DNA from: Candidatus Saccharimonadota bacterium
GTDB lineage: Bacteria; Patescibacteriota; Saccharimonadia; Saccharimonadales; UBA4665
Length of the DNA stretch: 64,000 nt
Assembly (NCBI GenBank): GCA_024635495.1
Contig: JAGXIT010000004.1
Location: forward strand, 186,001-250,000
Direction of reading: 5' to 3'
The notes under the pieces are model-generated. The model was not told the origin of the DNA. It saw only the letters and a program-made list of their open reading frames with translations, and searched no databases. Positions 11,616 to 17,555 of this stretch are shown here, piece after piece. The translations under genes and the position numbers were made by a program. Each line of letters starts with the position of its first letter. Within the stretch, counting starts at the first letter, position 1.

Positions 11616-12668
11616 ATGCCGAAAATCAATAAGCATATTGAAATCGTGAGCTCTACTCAGAGTGTTCTTAGCTCTATGAGCAAAGAATCGCGAGATGAAA
11701 TCTACACTGTTCTTTCTCGGCATTATTCGAGGGTTGGCATCACTATTATTAATAATCTGACCGACTTGCAGGCCCTTGTCGCTCTGCGCCCTGACCTTGT
11801 ATTTCTCGGCATGAAGTTTATTCCTCTGGGCGATGATCTTCGAGGCGATGACAGGATTTGGCTGAGTGACCACCTAGAATCTGAAGGCATCTCACATACT
11901 GGGTCTAATAGCTCCGCGCACGAGCTTGAGCTTAATAAGCATTTATCAAAACAGCGCATGAACGATAGCGGCGTTATGACATCACCATCATTTATCTATC
12001 GTCAAAATGAGTCCACTATCACAAGCACACGCCTTACCTTTCCGCTTTTTGTGAAACCAAATGACAGAGGTGGCGGGCTAGGTATCGACGCTAATTCAGT
12101 AGCTTATGATATAGCTAGCATGAATTCAAAAATTGAGTATATTAGCAGTAAACTTGATTCTGATTCTCTTGTCGAAGAGTATTTGCCTGGCCGTGAGTTT
12201 AGCGTAGCGGTACTCAAGGATGAACATTCTGACGAATTTTCAGTCATGCCCATCGAACTAGTGGCTCCTACTGATGCGCAAGGCCACAGCATGCTGAGCG
12301 GCAAGGTAAAGATGTCGAATGTCGAGCAGGTGCATGAAGTGACAGACAAAACTCTTAGAGGTGAAGTCTGCACTCTCGCACTCGAAGCCTTTCACGCTCT
12401 CGGGGCTCGGGACTATGGGCGTATCGACATTCGCGTAGACGGTGCCGGTGTGCCGCACTTTCTTGAGGCAAATCTGCTACCAAGTTTAATAGGCGGCTAC
12501 GGCTCCTTCCCTAAGTCTTGTAAGCTAAACCTAGGCCTCCCGCACGAAGCTATGGTCGTCAGGATAGCCAACCTGGGGTTAGCTCATGGAAGCTCTGATA
12601 CTGCAGATAGCTTCGAGCAAGCACTAAGAAGCTCGTTTTTGCCGCAACTGAAACTCAGTTCTAACTAG
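11616..12668 (+). CDS. ATP-grasp enzyme related to D-alanine-D-alanine ligase
   Basis: Protein of 350 residues with the D-Ala-D-Ala ligase layout: an N-terminal substrate domain, then ATP-grasp with FPLFVKPNDRGGGLGI (near 141-156), EEYLPGREFSVAVL (near 188-201), and the C-terminal metal/phosphate site RIDIRVDG plus HFLEANLLPSL. The E-x-N metal ligand pair is present as EAN. It probably joins D-amino acids or related substrates for cell-wall synthesis, but no mur genes are adjacent, so another carboxylate-amine ligase role is possible. GAAGGTGG lies about 7 bases before the ATG. Confidence 0.78.
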   Translation: MPKINKHIEIVSSTQSVLSSMSKESRDEIYTVLSRHYSRVGITIINNLTDLQALVALRPDLVFLGMKFIPLGDDLRGDDRIWLSDHLESEGISHTGSNSSAHELELNKHLSKQRMNDSGVMTSPSFIYRQNESTITSTRLTFPLFVKPNDRGGGLGIDANSVAYDIASMNSKIEYISSKLDSDSLVEEYLPGREFSVAVLKDEHSDEFSVMPIELVAPTDAQGHSMLSGKVKMSNVEQVHEVTDKTLRGEVCTLALEAFHALGARDYGRIDIRVDGAGVPHFLEANLLPSLIGGYGSFPKSCKLNLGLPHEAMVVRIANLGLAHGSSDTADSFEQALRSSFLPQLKLSSN

Positions 12669-12686
12669 CATTTACCGGGCTTTAAA

Positions 12687-12710
12687 ACTTATATAAGGAC
12701 TTATATAAGT
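12687..12710. repeat. Two tandem short palindromes
   Basis: ACTTATATAAG occurs twice with one base between (12687-12697, 12699-12709). Each copy contains the palindrome CTTATATAAG. The pair lies between convergent genes and can fold into an AT-rich hairpin; it could help end transcription from both sides, but there is no T-run. Confidence 0.35.
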
Positions 12711-12727
12711 CTGCCAAATATACTCTG

Positions 12728-12976
12728 TTATTTACGAAAAACTTTCACGATACCTATGAGGACTATCGCGCCGACGACTGCTACCCAGAAACTGTACCAG
12801 TTGAACCCAGTTACACCTGTGTTGCCGAACAGCCCGTAGACGAAGCCACCAATGACCGCACCGACGATGCCGGTGAGGATATTGAGTAACACCCCCATAG
12901 ATTTATCTACGCCCATGACTAAGGACGCCAGCCAGCCAGCGAATCCACCCAAGATTATCCATGATAAAATTCCCAT
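12728..12976 (-). CDS. GlsB/YeaQ/YmgE-family stress membrane protein
   Basis: Small membrane protein of 82 residues, transglycosylase-associated family (PF04226-like). The family signature is visible: GGFAGWLASLVMG near residue 10, then a GVLLNILTGIVGAVIGGFVYG helix, and a third helix near the end. Members are induced by general stress; the molecular role is not known. A perfect Shine-Dalgarno AGGAGG precedes the ATG. It lies 61 bases downstream of a YggT-family gene on the same strand and may share its transcript. Confidence 0.88.
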   Translation of the reverse strand: MGILSWIILGGFAGWLASLVMGVDKSMGVLLNILTGIVGAVIGGFVYGLFGNTGVTGFNWYSFWVAVVGAIVLIGIVKVFRK

Positions 12977-13037
12977 ATATCCTCCTGTATTACGTAAACG
13001 ATGCTAGGTACTTAGAAACAGATTCAAAAAGTTTGTT

Positions 13038-13352
13038 TTATTTCTTGGTCGACTTAGAAGTAGCGCCAGTCAAGAAGTCTAGTAGTGCGACTAGTAGCAA
13101 TGCGATTATTGCGTACATGACGATGGCAAATAGTGTCGAGAACTCAAACACAAATTTATTTTCAAATACTGTGGTTGGGAATATTCCTCGAAAAGGTTCA
13201 AGCAATACGCTACTCATATTATATAGCCAGCCTACGAATGCATTGCCAGCATTTGCACCGAATAGTTTGAGTATAAACCTCAGACCTAGAAATAGTTCTA
13301 CGAGACTAAAAACTACGTAGATTAAATTATTCGTCAGATATCGTACATTCAT
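13038..13352 (-). CDS. YggT-family membrane protein
   Basis: Membrane protein of 104 residues with two to three helices and the YggT-type core LFLGLRFILKLFGANAGNAF followed by PFRGIFP. YggT proteins are small integral membrane proteins linked in other bacteria to osmotic stress and division; no catalytic residues are expected. AAGGAGG lies at good spacing before the ATG, and a TATAAT (13378-13383, minus) sits 25 bases upstream. A paralog with the same LRFxLxLxGANAxNxF pattern lies at 13695-14084. Confidence 0.8.
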   Translation of the reverse strand: MNVRYLTNNLIYVVFSLVELFLGLRFILKLFGANAGNAFVGWLYNMSSVLLEPFRGIFPTTVFENKFVFEFSTLFAIVMYAIIALLLVALLDFLTGATSKSTKK

Positions 13353-13377
13353 ACTACCTCCTTGATTGATACTTTAC

Positions 13378-13417
13378 ATTATAGTCCTGTCCGTCAAACC
13401 TATGGTATTTGATACCA
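13378..13417 (-). promoter_or_regulatory. Promoter and palindromic operator of the YggT gene
   Basis: On the minus strand TATAAT (13378-13383) lies 25 bases before the ATG at 13352. A perfect palindrome TGGTAT-N3-ATACCA (13403-13417) is centred 27 bases above the -10 edge, over the -35 region, where no good -35 hexamer is seen. This arrangement suggests control by a DNA-binding regulator. Confidence 0.5.
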
Positions 13418-13450
13418 GTTAACATTCAACCTCAACCTCGCTATTAACAA

Positions 13451-13483
13451 CGAAATAACACCACACGAGGTGGTGTTATTTCG
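13451..13483 (-). terminator. Intrinsic terminator, 14-bp stem
   Basis: CGAAATAACACCAC (13451-13464) pairs perfectly with 13470-13483 around a 5-base loop. On the minus strand it follows the stop of the 57-residue gene at 13501 and is followed by TTGTTAATAG. It probably ends the operon that begins at 14084. Confidence 0.7.
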
Positions 13484-13500
13484 TAGCTGAGAGTCTGGGT

Positions 13501-13674
13501 CTAGAGCCCAATATGTAGGTTTACTCCAAGTAGCAGAAGTGGCCAGACAACGACTGCAAGTATAGCTGAAAGTAGATCAGGAATTGACCCTAAATCTCCA
13601 AAGTATCCTCGATTACTTGCCACGATAACTCCAATAACAAAGTAAATGGTACTGCCTATAGATAAAAGATTCAT
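13501..13674 (-). CDS. Small two-helix membrane protein, 57 residues
   Basis: Short gene read directly from the minus strand: it starts MNLLSIGSTIYFVIGVIVAS and ends LLLGVNLHIGL. Two hydrophobic helices (about 5-19 and 32-52) are separated by a short loop NRGYFGDLGSIP. A Shine-Dalgarno-like AAGGG lies about 7 bases before the ATG. It lies 20 bases after the YggT paralog on the same strand and is followed by a strong terminator, so it looks like the last gene of that operon. No family is recognised; it resembles small stress-associated membrane proteins only in shape. Confidence 0.7.
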   Translation of the reverse strand: MNLLSIGSTIYFVIGVIVASNRGYFGDLGSIPDLLSAILAVVVWPLLLLGVNLHIGL

Positions 13675-13694
13675 GACATACCCTTGCTGAGAGA

Positions 13695-14084
13695 TTAATC
13701 TCGATTAAGCGTAACCAACCTAACGATTCCCCAGGCAATAAGTGAATAGACTATCATTGCGACCAGAGTATAAACCTCGAAGTGAGAAGTACCATAAGTA
13801 TAGTTATCGTAGTTGAACAAGCTAAAAAACGGCGCAACAAACGGATGGGACGTGCTATAGACAAAATCAGCGAAGCCATTGGTCGCATTAGCACCGAGTA
13901 GAGTTAGTACGAACCTTAGCCCAAGTACTACTAGAAGTAGGCCGGCTATATACCAAACTACTCTTGAGATTACATTTGTCTTATGCTCAGCATCGTCTTG
14001 TGAATTACTCGTTTCAGTGTTTTTCTGTACAGTATCACCGGTCCTGGTAGTTGTTTCTCTTACATTCTGCGTATCTTCAGTCAT
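13695..14084 (-). CDS. YggT-like membrane protein with charged N-terminal tail
   Basis: Protein of 129 residues: a polar, Thr/Asp/Glu-rich tail (about 1-38), then two to three membrane helices with the YggT-like core LGLRFVLTLLGANATNGFAD and PFVAPFFSLF. The tail is absent from the shorter YggT protein at 13038-13352. AAGGGAGA precedes the ATG. A Crp-type operator (14132-14147) and a TATTTT -10 box lie upstream, with the same spacing as at the regulator gene next door, so it is likely controlled by that regulator. Confidence 0.75.
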   Translation of the reverse strand: MTEDTQNVRETTTRTGDTVQKNTETSNSQDDAEHKTNVISRVVWYIAGLLLVVLGLRFVLTLLGANATNGFADFVYSTSHPFVAPFFSLFNYDNYTYGTSHFEVYTLVAMIVYSLIAWGIVRLVTLNRD

Positions 14085-14104
14085 ATTAGTCTCCCTTTGT
14101 TCTC

Positions 14105-14147
14105 AAAATAACACCTATCCACGAGTCAGTCTGTGCGCTAGGACACA
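14105..14147 (-). promoter_or_regulatory. Crp-type operator and -10 box of the YggT-like operon
   Basis: TGTGCGCTAGGACACA (14132-14147) is a TGTG-N8-CACA dyad. On the minus strand a TATTTT -10 box (14105-14110) lies with its upstream edge 29.5 bases from the dyad centre. This is the same distance as at the Crp-type gene itself and fits a class II activator position near -41.5. Confidence 0.6.
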
Positions 14148-14198
14148 AAGGCCAGAACAACCCCGTAATTAATAAGCTACTTCACTTCTAAGTCTTTG

Positions 14199-14876
14199 CT
14201 ATGCAAGTGCTTGCCGTAGTTTGGATAAATCAAGGATAGTAAGGAGATGGTCTGATTGATCAACTAATCCTTCTTCAAAAAGCACTTCCAATGCTCTGCT
14301 TGCCGTCTCCCTGGTCATATTGATAGAGTCGGCAATATCTTGATGAGTTATCGGAGCATTAATTAAGACTTGCTTGCCGTGCTTTTCACCAAATCTTTCA
14401 GACAAATTCAATAATTCAGCTATCATCCTTCCACGAGCTGATCTGAATTCTAATGTTTGTATCCTCTGGGTGTAGACAGTAATGATATTAACCGCCTGTC
14501 TCATTACTTCTTGAGATAGCCAAGTATTGGTACCCATAGCAGCACGGAGATTTTCTTTAGAAGCTCTGAGAACCGTCACGTCAGTCATCGCCTCGTAGTA
14601 CAACCCCGTCGTGTGAGCTCCATCTAGGGCCCATGGAAGCGGTATGAATTCATCAGGCTGGTGAATCAATAACAGATTACCATTACCAGCTTTTGATAAA
14701 GAAAACGCCTTCACGAAGCCTTCTTTGATGAGATACACTCCTTCAGGCTTATCGATGCCGTTGATTATCGTTTCGCCACTTGTAAACCGCAGCTCTACCC
14801 CATCACTAAAATGGGCGACAATACTCTCGTCCTTAGTTTCCTCCGTCGGTATACCAGCCAGTGGACTCATGGTCAT
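14199..14876 (-). CDS. Crp/Fnr-family transcription regulator
   Basis: Regulator of 225 residues with an N-terminal cNMP-type beta-barrel (about 20-130), a long dimer helix, and a C-terminal winged helix-turn-helix. The recognition helix TRETASRALEVL carries R189, E190 and R194, the same R-E-xxx-R pattern E. coli CRP uses (R180, E181, R185) to read TGTGA. No cysteine is present, so it is not an Fe-S FNR sensor, and the usual cAMP phosphate-binding loop is not obvious; the signal is unknown. TATACT (14884-14889) ends 7 bases before the ATG (leaderless type), and a TGTG-N8-CACA site lies just upstream, suggesting autoregulation. Confidence 0.9.
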   Translation of the reverse strand: MTMSPLAGIPTEETKDESIVAHFSDGVELRFTSGETIINGIDKPEGVYLIKEGFVKAFSLSKAGNGNLLLIHQPDEFIPLPWALDGAHTTGLYYEAMTDVTVLRASKENLRAAMGTNTWLSQEVMRQAVNIITVYTQRIQTLEFRSARGRMIAELLNLSERFGEKHGKQVLINAPITHQDIADSINMTRETASRALEVLFEEGLVDQSDHLLTILDLSKLRQALA

Positions 14877-14883
14877 GTTATGT

Positions 14884-14926
14884 AGTATATACCCCTGGAC
14901 ACTTTTTATGTGTGATGTGGCGCACA
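14884..14926 (-). promoter_or_regulatory. Crp-type operator and -10 box of the Crp-type regulator gene
   Basis: TGTGATGTGGCGCACA (14911-14926) is one base off the CRP consensus TGTGA-N6-TCACA. Its centre is 29.5 bases above the upstream edge of TATACT (14884-14889, minus strand), placing it near -41.5 from the expected transcription start. On the plus strand a TATGAT (14949-14954) stands 30.5 bases from the same centre, so the divergent small gene at 15056 may be controlled too. Confidence 0.65.
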
Positions 14927-15055
14927 GACTGCTCGGGGGCAGTTTCGATATGATTATACGTACAAGCTACCATTATGACGTACATCAGGGGGGTAAGGTG
15001 CTACGGGGACTGCTGGGCTATGTTCAATAACGAATCCAAATGAAAGGAGACAATT

Positions 15056-15271
15056 ATGTCCCATTCAGTTAGAGTAATATCGAACAAAAACCAAAGGCAA
15101 TCAAAAGTACATTTTCGACACTACATGGGTAATACTGATGAGCCAGACGATACCTCGTATCCTGGTGCGATGCAAGGGCAGCGAACGAGATCTCTTGAGC
15201 AATCAGATGGGTACTACGCGGTTGCGAGGAGACAGATTCGGCGAAGTGCTCAAAAATTAAGGACAAGTTAA
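15056..15271 (+). CDS. Small basic protein of unknown function, 71 residues
   Basis: Hydrophilic, Arg/Gln/Ser-rich protein with no membrane helix, beginning MSHSVRVISNKNQRQ. No family is recognised. Evidence that it is real: a strong Shine-Dalgarno AAAGGAGA 6-7 bases before the ATG, and a good intrinsic terminator right after the stop. It is divergent from the Crp-type regulator gene and shares its upstream operator region, with a TATGAT -10 at 14949-14954, so it may be part of the same stress response. An overlapping antisense frame of 65 residues has no comparable signals. Confidence 0.6.
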   Translation: MSHSVRVISNKNQRQSKVHFRHYMGNTDEPDDTSYPGAMQGQRTRSLEQSDGYYAVARRQIRRSAQKLRTS

Positions 15272-15279
15272 TAATAAAT

Positions 15280-15305
15280 AAAGGCCTCCAATCACGGAGG
15301 CCTTT
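15280..15305 (+). terminator. Intrinsic terminator after the 71-residue gene
   Basis: AAAGGCCTCC (15280-15289) pairs with GGAGGCCTTT (15296-15305) around a 6-base loop and is followed by TT on the plus strand. Confidence 0.8.
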
Positions 15306-15345
15306 TAGTCACAAAAAGCCGGGTCAAAAGATCCGACGTTTCGTA

Positions 15346-15377
15346 TGGCTGGGACGTTAGGATAGCGCTTCCCTCGC
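15346..15377. repeat. tRNA-Gln 3'-end fragment joined to a 20-bp repeat
   Basis: 15346-15363 matches the 3' end of tRNA-Gln (18548-18565) in the same orientation with one mismatch (TGGCTGGGACGTTAGGAT). It runs directly into TAGGATAGCGCTTCCCTCGC (15358-15377), which recurs exactly at 17224-17243. No complete tRNA can be folded here. Confidence 0.6.
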
Positions 15378-15452
15378 CTAAGCCGAACCCGTTCTATAGC
15401 CCCGAGAGGACTTAGGATAGCATATTTGGGTAAAAAGTTTGTGACTATAAGA

Positions 15453-16799
15453 CTACGGGTTAGTCTGGCCCAGCTGGTGCTTTATGTCTTTTAAGCGCTT
15501 ATCAATGTCTTTTCGATCGGCTGTGGAAGCAGATGATTCCCGAAGATAATGTCGAGCATTTTTTAGTAAACGTTCTAGTGGCTTGGCATGTGGTCTATCT
15601 GGTATTTGTTGAGCAAGTTCCGACAGCACATCTAATAAAGCATGTGTTACTACTATATTCTCACGTGCTTCAGTTTGTATTTGTGCAAAAGATTGGGTTA
15701 CGAAATCGTCCCAAGTTGGTCTGTTTAGAACGAGCAGCATCTTGCTATCTTTCAGCTCGCGGACCTGGCTAGGAAATTCCCTCTGCAAAAGTTGCGTCAG
15801 TCCATCACCCAAATACCATATGCAATAGGTAGCAGTCGTTGGGTCGTTGATTCCTGGAGACATTGCCTTTATGCCTATATCGACAAGTTGCCGTATAGCA
15901 AATAAAGGATCTTGTAGAAGTGACCGTTGACCATCTACAGTTACAGCAGAACGGATGAGGTTCCTGTTTTTTTTATCAAGCCGCTTATAGCCATATAGTT
16001 TTGCCAATGCTTGACCTTGCATGATAAAATCACCAATTCGCGGCAAGATATGCAATTGGTTGTTCTTCTTCAGGCTAAGTTTTTCTAAGACACCATCACT
16101 GATATATAGAACAAACCCAGCAAAGTCCGATTTAATAGTAATAAATTCCTTGCTCTTTGAGGGTGCGCTTATACGCTTTTTTTTGGATGAATCGACTCCT
16201 GAACCAATGCGGCTTGGGTATAGCTTGTTAATTTGATTCAACAGCTCACGATGAATCTTTTCTAGGATGGTGTTAGTCTGGAGAGAGGTCGCGGTATGGC
16301 TAATAAAATATATCAAAAGCCCGATACATATCAGCGCAAACATGATTGCAGCGGTGGTAGCAATTGGGGGGGCAAAACCTACACCGCCAACTTCTGCAGG
16401 GTCACGCACCGCTTTCAATATAAGTAGAGAATAGACAAACGTGGCGACGAAGGCACCAAGCACGATCTGGTTACCCCTGTCTGAGGTGAAATTACGCATA
16501 ACACGAGGCGTAAACTGTGCTGACGCTTGCTGTAGGGCTATGATGGTCAGCGAAAAGGCTATAGAAATAGTTGTAATAACGGAACCGGCTATTGTAGACA
16601 GAACATTTCTCGTGGCGCTTGGTGCGCCACCAAATAGCCACGATAGATTACTGCTCAGGTACGCGCTATATTGTCGGTCAAGATATAGAAGGAAATATGA
16701 CAGTATAACCGCGAATATAACTAGCACGGTTGGGGTGAACCAGAGCTTGGCTCTGACATTCTCCCACGTAGCACGTAGTTTTGCGAGAGTAACATCCAT
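15453..16799 (-). CDS. DUF2254 integral membrane protein
   Basis: Protein of 448 residues matching the DUF2254 layout: four membrane helices in the first 190 residues (about 18-40, 60-90, 110-135, 148-170) and a large soluble C-terminal part. Recognisable stretches are TIAGSVITTISIAFSLTIIA and RQLVDIGIKAMSPGINDPTT. The function of the family is not known. The promoter TTGACA (16828-16833) - N16 - TATTAT (16806-16811) ends 6 bases before the ATG, with no Shine-Dalgarno, so the transcript should be leaderless. It is one of few intact larger genes in a gene-poor, tRNA-fragment-rich stretch. Confidence 0.82.
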   Translation of the reverse strand: MDVTLAKLRATWENVRAKLWFTPTVLVIFAVILSYFLLYLDRQYSAYLSSNLSWLFGGAPSATRNVLSTIAGSVITTISIAFSLTIIALQQASAQFTPRVMRNFTSDRGNQIVLGAFVATFVYSLLILKAVRDPAEVGGVGFAPPIATTAAIMFALICIGLLIYFISHTATSLQTNTILEKIHRELLNQINKLYPSRIGSGVDSSKKKRISAPSKSKEFITIKSDFAGFVLYISDGVLEKLSLKKNNQLHILPRIGDFIMQGQALAKLYGYKRLDKKNRNLIRSAVTVDGQRSLLQDPLFAIRQLVDIGIKAMSPGINDPTTATYCIWYLGDGLTQLLQREFPSQVRELKDSKMLLVLNRPTWDDFVTQSFAQIQTEARENIVVTHALLDVLSELAQQIPDRPHAKPLERLLKNARHYLRESSASTADRKDIDKRLKDIKHQLGQTNP

Positions 16800-16805
16800 T
16801 TATAT

Positions 16806-16833
16806 ATAATACACCAAAAGTTGAATATGTCAA
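16806..16833 (-). promoter_or_regulatory. Promoter of the DUF2254 gene
   Basis: TTGACA and TATTAT are 16 bases apart on the minus strand; the -10 ends 6 bases before the ATG at 16799. Confidence 0.65.
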
Positions 16834-17066
16834 TGTATAGTTATTAAGTGGCGCTGGATTATCTGCGTAATAAGAGACCCATTAATTGTGTAATATAACC
16901 CCAGAAGTACTGCTGCTGCGATTAACTTGTATGGCCCTATTATATTCGGCTTATACTTGCTCAGCAGTTTATAAATAGCCCAAGTTAAGAAAATAGTCTA
17001 ATCTCCTAACACAAAGAGAAAGTTTGGACCATTAACGCATATAACAAGTACGATAAAGTCTGGCAT
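16830..17066 (-). pseudogene. Broken small membrane protein gene with an in-frame TAG
   Basis: A minus-strand frame of 79 codons from the ATG at 17066 encodes two hydrophobic segments with a basic middle (IYKLLSKYKPNIIGPYKL), interrupted by one TAG at 16998-17000. Downstream of the TAG there is no ATG to restart. It is most simply a decayed gene; stop-codon readthrough is an untested alternative. No family is recognised. The stretch 17067-17381 above it holds no gene that I can see, only repeats. Confidence 0.35.
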
Positions 17067-17132
17067 CACTGTAAGTTTAGCAGCCTGTATTAGGCGTAAG
17101 GCAGTACATTCTTAAAACATCAAAATTCAAAA

Positions 17133-17243
17133 TGGCTGGGACGGTAGGATGCGCTTCGCTTGCACGGTATTCGCTTTTCGGAATACATTCGTGCACACTC
17201 ATACCTGTACTTCAAATGCATGGTAGGATAGCGCTTCCCTCGC
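17133..17243. repeat. tRNA-Gln 3'-end fragment, hairpin and 20-bp repeat
   Basis: 17133-17150 (TGGCTGGGACGGTAGGAT) is an exact 18-base copy of the tRNA-Gln 3' end including CCA, in the same orientation as the tRNA at 18548. It is followed by an imperfect hairpin (17161-17172 with 17181-17195) and by TAGGATAGCGCTTCCCTCGC (17224-17243), an exact repeat of 15358-15377. This resembles an attachment-site remnant left by integration at a tRNA 3' end. Confidence 0.6.
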
Positions 17244-17381
17244 TTGCAGCTCGTCGTTTCTCCTTTCGCTTCGCTCACATACGCCGCCGAATCTATCTTG
17301 TTTCAAAAAACTTTTCTGGAGCTCAGATACTCCGACCTAAGCAATAAATAGGCCGAACATGTTGGGCCGTAGCGACTACTA

Positions 17382-17555
17382 TTACTCCCCGTCTTTCGCT
17401 CTAGTTATCAAGAGGATTGTCATAATAAACAATAATGCAGTGGCTAAATAATAAATAAAATTACTTTCCGGTTCTGGAAAGAAGAATAGCGTCAGGAGCC
17501 CAAGGAACGCTAGGGTTACAGCAATATATTTCTTATTCTTCGTTATAAACTTCAT
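17382..17555 (-). CDS. Small two-helix membrane protein, 57 residues
   Basis: Short minus-strand gene beginning MKFITKNKKYIAVTLAFLGL and ending LLITRAKDGE. Two hydrophobic helices (about 10-26 and 33-51) are joined by a short acidic loop FPEPESN; the basic N-terminus predicts both ends in the cytoplasm. The Shine-Dalgarno is weak. Directly upstream is a perfect 12-bp inverted repeat (17578-17630). No family is recognised, and a chance reading frame cannot be excluded, but the amphipathic design is convincing. Confidence 0.5.
   Translation of the reverse strand: MKFITKNKKYIAVTLAFLGLLTLFFFPEPESNFIYYLATALLFIMTILLITRAKDGE

Follow-up and report, generated by a model that had tools for sequence, protein, structure and literature searches.

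Within the 64-kb window examined here, which belongs to contig C5 in a Candidatus Saccharibacteria genome of 820 kb, lies a gene for a 225-residue protein with a candidate operator on either side, a yggT-like gene behind it and a divergent gene for a small basic protein (Table 1). Pfam matches to PF00027 (38.0 bits; cut-off 27.5), PF13545 (56.6 bits; cut-off 27) and PF00325 (25.9 bits; cut-off 21) place the protein in the Crp/Fnr superfamily, with a predicted cyclic-nucleotide-binding-type N-terminal domain and Crp-type winged helix. None of the NCBIfam equivalog cut-offs was reached by this protein, and identities as a CRP equivalog (score 33.1 versus a cut-off of 266) and as an NtcA equivalog (47.7 bits versus 244.95) were both rejected. 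The small basic protein matched no Pfam or NCBIfam model.

The 57-residue hydrophobic ORF behind yggT is probably carried on the same transcript, for which a downstream hairpin is a possible end point; our terminator scan did not call this hairpin. Behind it, at 12728-13352, lie another YggT gene and one of Transgly_assoc (GlsB/YeaQ-type), and no operator was seen for either. The neighbouring YggT paralog passes the PF02325 cut-off with 31.6 bits. No Rfam match was detected in positions 12000-17500 of the window.

Table 1. Genes, candidate operators and promoter elements of the regulator locus (window coordinates).
Feature	Position	Strand	Remarks
Hairpin AACACCACC-TCG-TGTGGTGTT	13454..13477	minus	seen in sequence
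Hydrophobic ORF	13501..13674	minus	57 aa; directly behind yggT; no Pfam match
YggT-like membrane protein	13695..14084	minus	129 aa; PF02325 match (25.2 bits, just below cut-off 27); conserved family
-10 box TATTTT, yggT promoter	14110-14105	minus	29.5 bp from O2 centre
GAC (KAC), -35-like element adjoining O2	14129..14131	minus	from KAC comparison
Operator O2, TGTGTCCTAGCGCACA (minus strand)	14132..14147		upstream of yggT; counterparts in G013, G217, G172, G221
Crp/Fnr-family regulator	14199..14876	minus	225 aa; Pfam domains, orthologs; ATG at predicted transcription start (leaderless)
-10 box TATACT, regulator's own promoter	14889-14884	minus	29.5 bp from O1 centre; 7 nt before ATG
Operator O1, TGTGATGTGGCGCACA	14911..14926		common to regulator (minus) and small-protein (plus) promoters; conserved in 24/28 copies
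GAC (KAC), -35-like element adjoining O1	14927..14929	plus	target direction; from KAC counts across operators
-10 box TATGAT, small-protein promoter	14949..14954	plus	30.5 bp from O1 centre
5' leader of small-protein gene, ~95 nt	14961..15055	plus	sequence partly conserved
Small basic protein	15056..15271	plus	71 aa; regulon core target

Composite operator-promoter sites

A sequence-only reading of this DNA had reported TGTG-N8-CACA dyads at both operator positions, each centred 29.5 bases from a -10 box, and a divergent TATGAT 30.5 bases from the second centre; every one of these elements was recovered as described. The two dyads are the only exact copies in the window, where 0.89 would be expected by chance, a count which is not significant by itself and was rejected as evidence. 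When the -10 box was included in the pattern (TGTG-N8-CACA-N21-TATNNT), the genome-wide scan suggested by the same reading returned zero-mismatch matches only at O1 and O2, and three matches with one mismatch, all inside ORFs. It is on this composite site, a dyad combined with a -10 box 29.5 bp from its centre, that significance rests.

Measured from the operator centre to the first -10 base, the 29.5 bp distance places the operator over the -35 region with its centre at -41.5, on the assumption that the -10 hexamer occupies -12 to -7 relative to the predicted start sites. This position and overlap are those of a predicted class II Crp-dependent promoter. Our promoter scan found no promoter-like site with a near-consensus -35 at these operator places. 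Usually (16 loci), a single operator serves two mirror-image promoters, that of the regulator and that of a divergent target such as the small basic protein. Promoters on the target side possess a KAC trinucleotide immediately after the operator, forming a -35-like element at approximately -33 to -31; it was identified at 13 of the 16 shared operators, at all nine separate target operators, and at none of the seven operators lacking a target on that side (13/16 versus 0/7, Fisher p=0.0005). The element is missing from the regulator self-promoters.

Among 28 regulator copies compared (27 named loci and the window copy), the -10 box ends 6 or 7 nt before the regulator start codon in 26. Since a Shine-Dalgarno sequence would not fit into this interval, the regulator mRNA is predicted to be leaderless, and the fixed relation also supports the placement of the -10 boxes. 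Separately, among the 55 long ORFs of the window, 11 show a -10-like hexamer at 6-7 nt ahead of a start codon, the corresponding figure for internal start codons being 3.2%; leaderless genes thus look common in the source genome, e.g. the predicted case of the DUF2254 gene at 15453-16799.

Conservation and regulon content among relatives

Of the 392 genomes of the order, 23 possess a regulator ortholog (E<=1e-45; 54-76% identity), a few of them in two copies. The named relatives among these are mostly Candidatus Saccharibacteria MAGs. Because orthologs are spread over several families, yet absent from all six further genomes searched within the genus of the source genome, the system appears patchily distributed, having apparently often been lost or moved horizontally. 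Upstream of the regulator gene, the operator TGTGCG-N4-RTCAC or a close variant is retained in 24 of the 28 copies, at distances to the -10 box of 29.5 bp (17 copies), 28.5 bp (5), 27.5 bp (1) and 31.5 bp (1). Two of the four copies without a full operator retain a half-site at the right distance. The invariant motif columns reach 2 bits and flanking columns in these upstream regions average 0.27 bits, which points to selection on the operator and not to recent descent. Across ortholog-bearing genomes, pairs of TGTG-N8-CAC and TATNNT show their peak at a distance of exactly 29.5 bp, with 29 of 110 pairs (p=1e-7); in 23 genomes lacking the ortholog, 14 of 116 pairs fall at this distance (p=0.17). 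Thus the dyads are conserved in relatives and their spacing is not random; the opposite outcomes had been named by the sequence-only reading as refuting its proposal. In one relative, an operator (TGTGCGTAATATCACG) was also found upstream of what remains of another regulator copy, a short piece interrupted by stop codons (G013:C3:21087-21356), probably a decayed duplicate of the regulator.

Homologs of the small basic protein were found in 10 of the 392 genomes, nine of which also possess the regulator (Fisher p=1e-11); in the sole exception (G026), the operator is likewise missing. The gene is almost always preceded by the composite site, which is kept where the gene is unlinked to the regulator (G013; gene on C1, regulator on C6) and where it is located downstream of it (L182, L184). 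Its leader contains a sequence partly conserved across relatives, GGAGG...TTGCTRGGCTTTGTTC. A structured RNA in this leader was rejected as unconvincing (consensus energy -0.86 kcal/mol, 8 pairs). A short upstream ORF, sought by eye, was also rejected, as it is not retained in all relatives. In one relative (L176:4542-5840), a PAS histidine kinase is encoded as the divergent target, and its N-terminus may be similar to the small basic protein.

The same composite site precedes yggT in G000, G013, G217, G172 and G221, including a case in which yggT and its site lie on a different contig (C8) from the regulator (C6; G013). A yggT homolog with 71% identity in a genome without the regulator (G011) has no operator. 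As 6 of the 11 strong yggT homologs in regulator-bearing genomes lack the site and 5 have it, yggT appears to be a lineage-restricted member of the regulon, confined to a few genera. Distant yggT homologs were also observed in two genomes without a regulator ortholog (L231, L232). TGTG-type sites are present there too, at 29.5 bp from a -10 box, and these homologs may be controlled by another Crp paralog. Genes for DUF5670 proteins carry the composite site in G058, G153 and G217, in the last case on a different contig (C2) from the regulator (C6). A BON-domain protein, the PAS histidine kinase, an ABC transporter and a DUF2142 protein were each found as a target in a single case.

Proposed mechanism, signal and alternative readings

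We consider it probable that the locus encodes a class II Crp-type autoactivator whose regulon is small, local and concerned with the envelope or stress. A dimer of the 225-residue protein would bind TGTGCG-N4-RTCACA operators over the -35 region, with the operator centre at -41.5, and activate its own gene in a positive feedback loop through a leaderless mRNA, the divergent small-protein gene from the mirror side of O1, and yggT together with the 57-residue ORF from O2. The regulon of relatives would add DUF5670 and possibly the BON-domain protein, PAS histidine kinase and ABC transporter, and it is because of this target content, YggT included, that an envelope or stress function is suggested. 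The sequence-only reading had likewise proposed a class II activator of itself, a YggT-like operon and the small basic protein; conserved sites, their spacing and the recurring targets support this proposal, while activation as such is inferred from promoter geometry.

An autorepressor, which would bind over the -35 region to block its own and the divergent promoter until released by a signal, is improbable. Negative autoregulation is common, the operator at -41.5 covers the -35 region, and the -10 box of the regulator's own promoter is a good one, all of which would suit repression. However, repressors tolerate many positions, whereas 22 of the 24 self-promoters here keep a distance of 28.5-29.5 bp, which is likewise fixed at targets on both sides; furthermore, the sites have no near-consensus -35 and the self-promoters no KAC, and poor -35 boxes combined with a fixed site at -41.5 are characteristic of class II activation.

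It is less probable still, and in our judgement very unlikely, that the operators, though genuine, are read by one of the other two Crp-type paralogs in the source genome (35% and 27% identity to the regulator), or jointly. Paralogs with a similar recognition helix are present in nearly every genome, the related ones examined share the RExxxR helix, and the sites at the L231 and L232 yggT homologs occur where the ortholog is absent. Against this, the sites track the ortholog across genomes and loci, the 29.5-bp peak is not significant in genomes with paralogs only (14/116), and a fixed self-operator is not common to paralog genes, no rule that all Saccharibacterial Crp paralogs carry it having been seen among the paralogs examined. 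Chance dyads devoid of regulatory meaning, which would agree with the dyad count in the window, are refuted by the comparative data, i.e. conservation and fixed geometry across dozens of diverged loci, and retain next to no probability.

R189, E190 and R194 of the regulator, noted previously as the residues with which CRP reads its site, are all present; R189 and E190, which align with CRP R180 and E181, are invariant in 24 orthologs, and R194 is kept in most and lost in a few. In a profile alignment, the cAMP-contact residues of CRP (E72, R82, S83, T127 and S128) are replaced by L80, T90, G91, Y135 and T136, and identity as a cAMP-responsive CRP was rejected on this basis. The protein has no cysteine, and FNR-type Fe-S sensing, which requires four cluster cysteines, was also rejected. 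Because of these replacements and absences, signalling through cAMP or an Fe-S cluster is unlikely, in keeping with the earlier suggestion of a pocket without such features; a ligand-free state, as in SdrP and DdrI, would fit as well as the new signal proposed alongside. The orthogroup carries a conserved PLPWALDG...TGLxYEAM signature, with P-x-P-W and Y94 invariant in the phosphate-binding cassette region, and Y135 is an invariant tyrosine at the CRP T127 position. Most paralogs examined have a distinct FPLIWAxTG...Y form in place of P-x-P-W/Y94. With cAMP-contact and Fe-S residues missing and Y135 replacing T127, regulator activity is probably set by the amount of protein or by a non-nucleotide ligand near the conserved signature. 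A more specific picture, which we regard as doubtful, is that of a ligand-free activator using one operator for two mirror-image class II promoters, one of them its own leaderless promoter, as an envelope-stress positive-feedback switch in ultra-small Saccharibacteria, or alternatively a new sensor of a hydrophobic or aromatic ligand with a PxPW/Y94/Y135 pocket.

The regulator resembles E. coli CRP in profile-defined domain make-up, the R-E recognition pair, a TGTGA-N6-TCACA-like candidate site and the predicted class II position at -41.5, but differs in its replaced cAMP contacts, its low equivalog score, and a local instead of global regulon. FNR shares superfamily and the proposed class II use but recognizes TTGAT-N4-ATCAA, unlike the TGTG-type site here, and the regulator has no cysteine, hence no Fe-S cluster. 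PrfA, a glutathione-activated member of the superfamily, is reported to use one operator for the divergent hly and plcA promoters; this arrangement is also predicted for the regulator, whereas organism, operator sequence and targets differ. No paper on the shared PrfA operator was found in the open-access literature searched.

The best functional analogue of the regulator appears to be SdrP (TTHA1359) of Thermus thermophilus, which is described as independent of an effector, as acting in stress and as probably a class II activator whose site overlaps the -35 box (PMC8465061, PMC12937710). In DdrI of Deinococcus radiodurans, a tyrosine at the S128 position helps to fill the cAMP pocket (PMC11253593), whereas the regulator has its tyrosine at the T127 position; an Arg-Glu salt bridge is a DdrI feature. 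Both proteins are activators, as proposed for the regulator, and share with it the Crp superfamily and a CRP-like operator; they are distinguished from it by its small, local regulon, the operator common to mirror-image promoters, and the PLPWALDG/TGLxYEAM signature. The open-access literature searched contained no paper joining Saccharibacteria with a Crp-type regulon. The parts are of known kind, the regulon is undescribed in the open-access papers searched, and its anatomy is partly unusual.

The sequence data define the regulator, resolve its operator to single bases and delimit two subtypes of promoter and a core set of targets, and a likely envelope or stress function is indicated for small orphan proteins. 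Together, these features offer a testable entry into gene control of host-dependent bacteria, in which manipulation is difficult.
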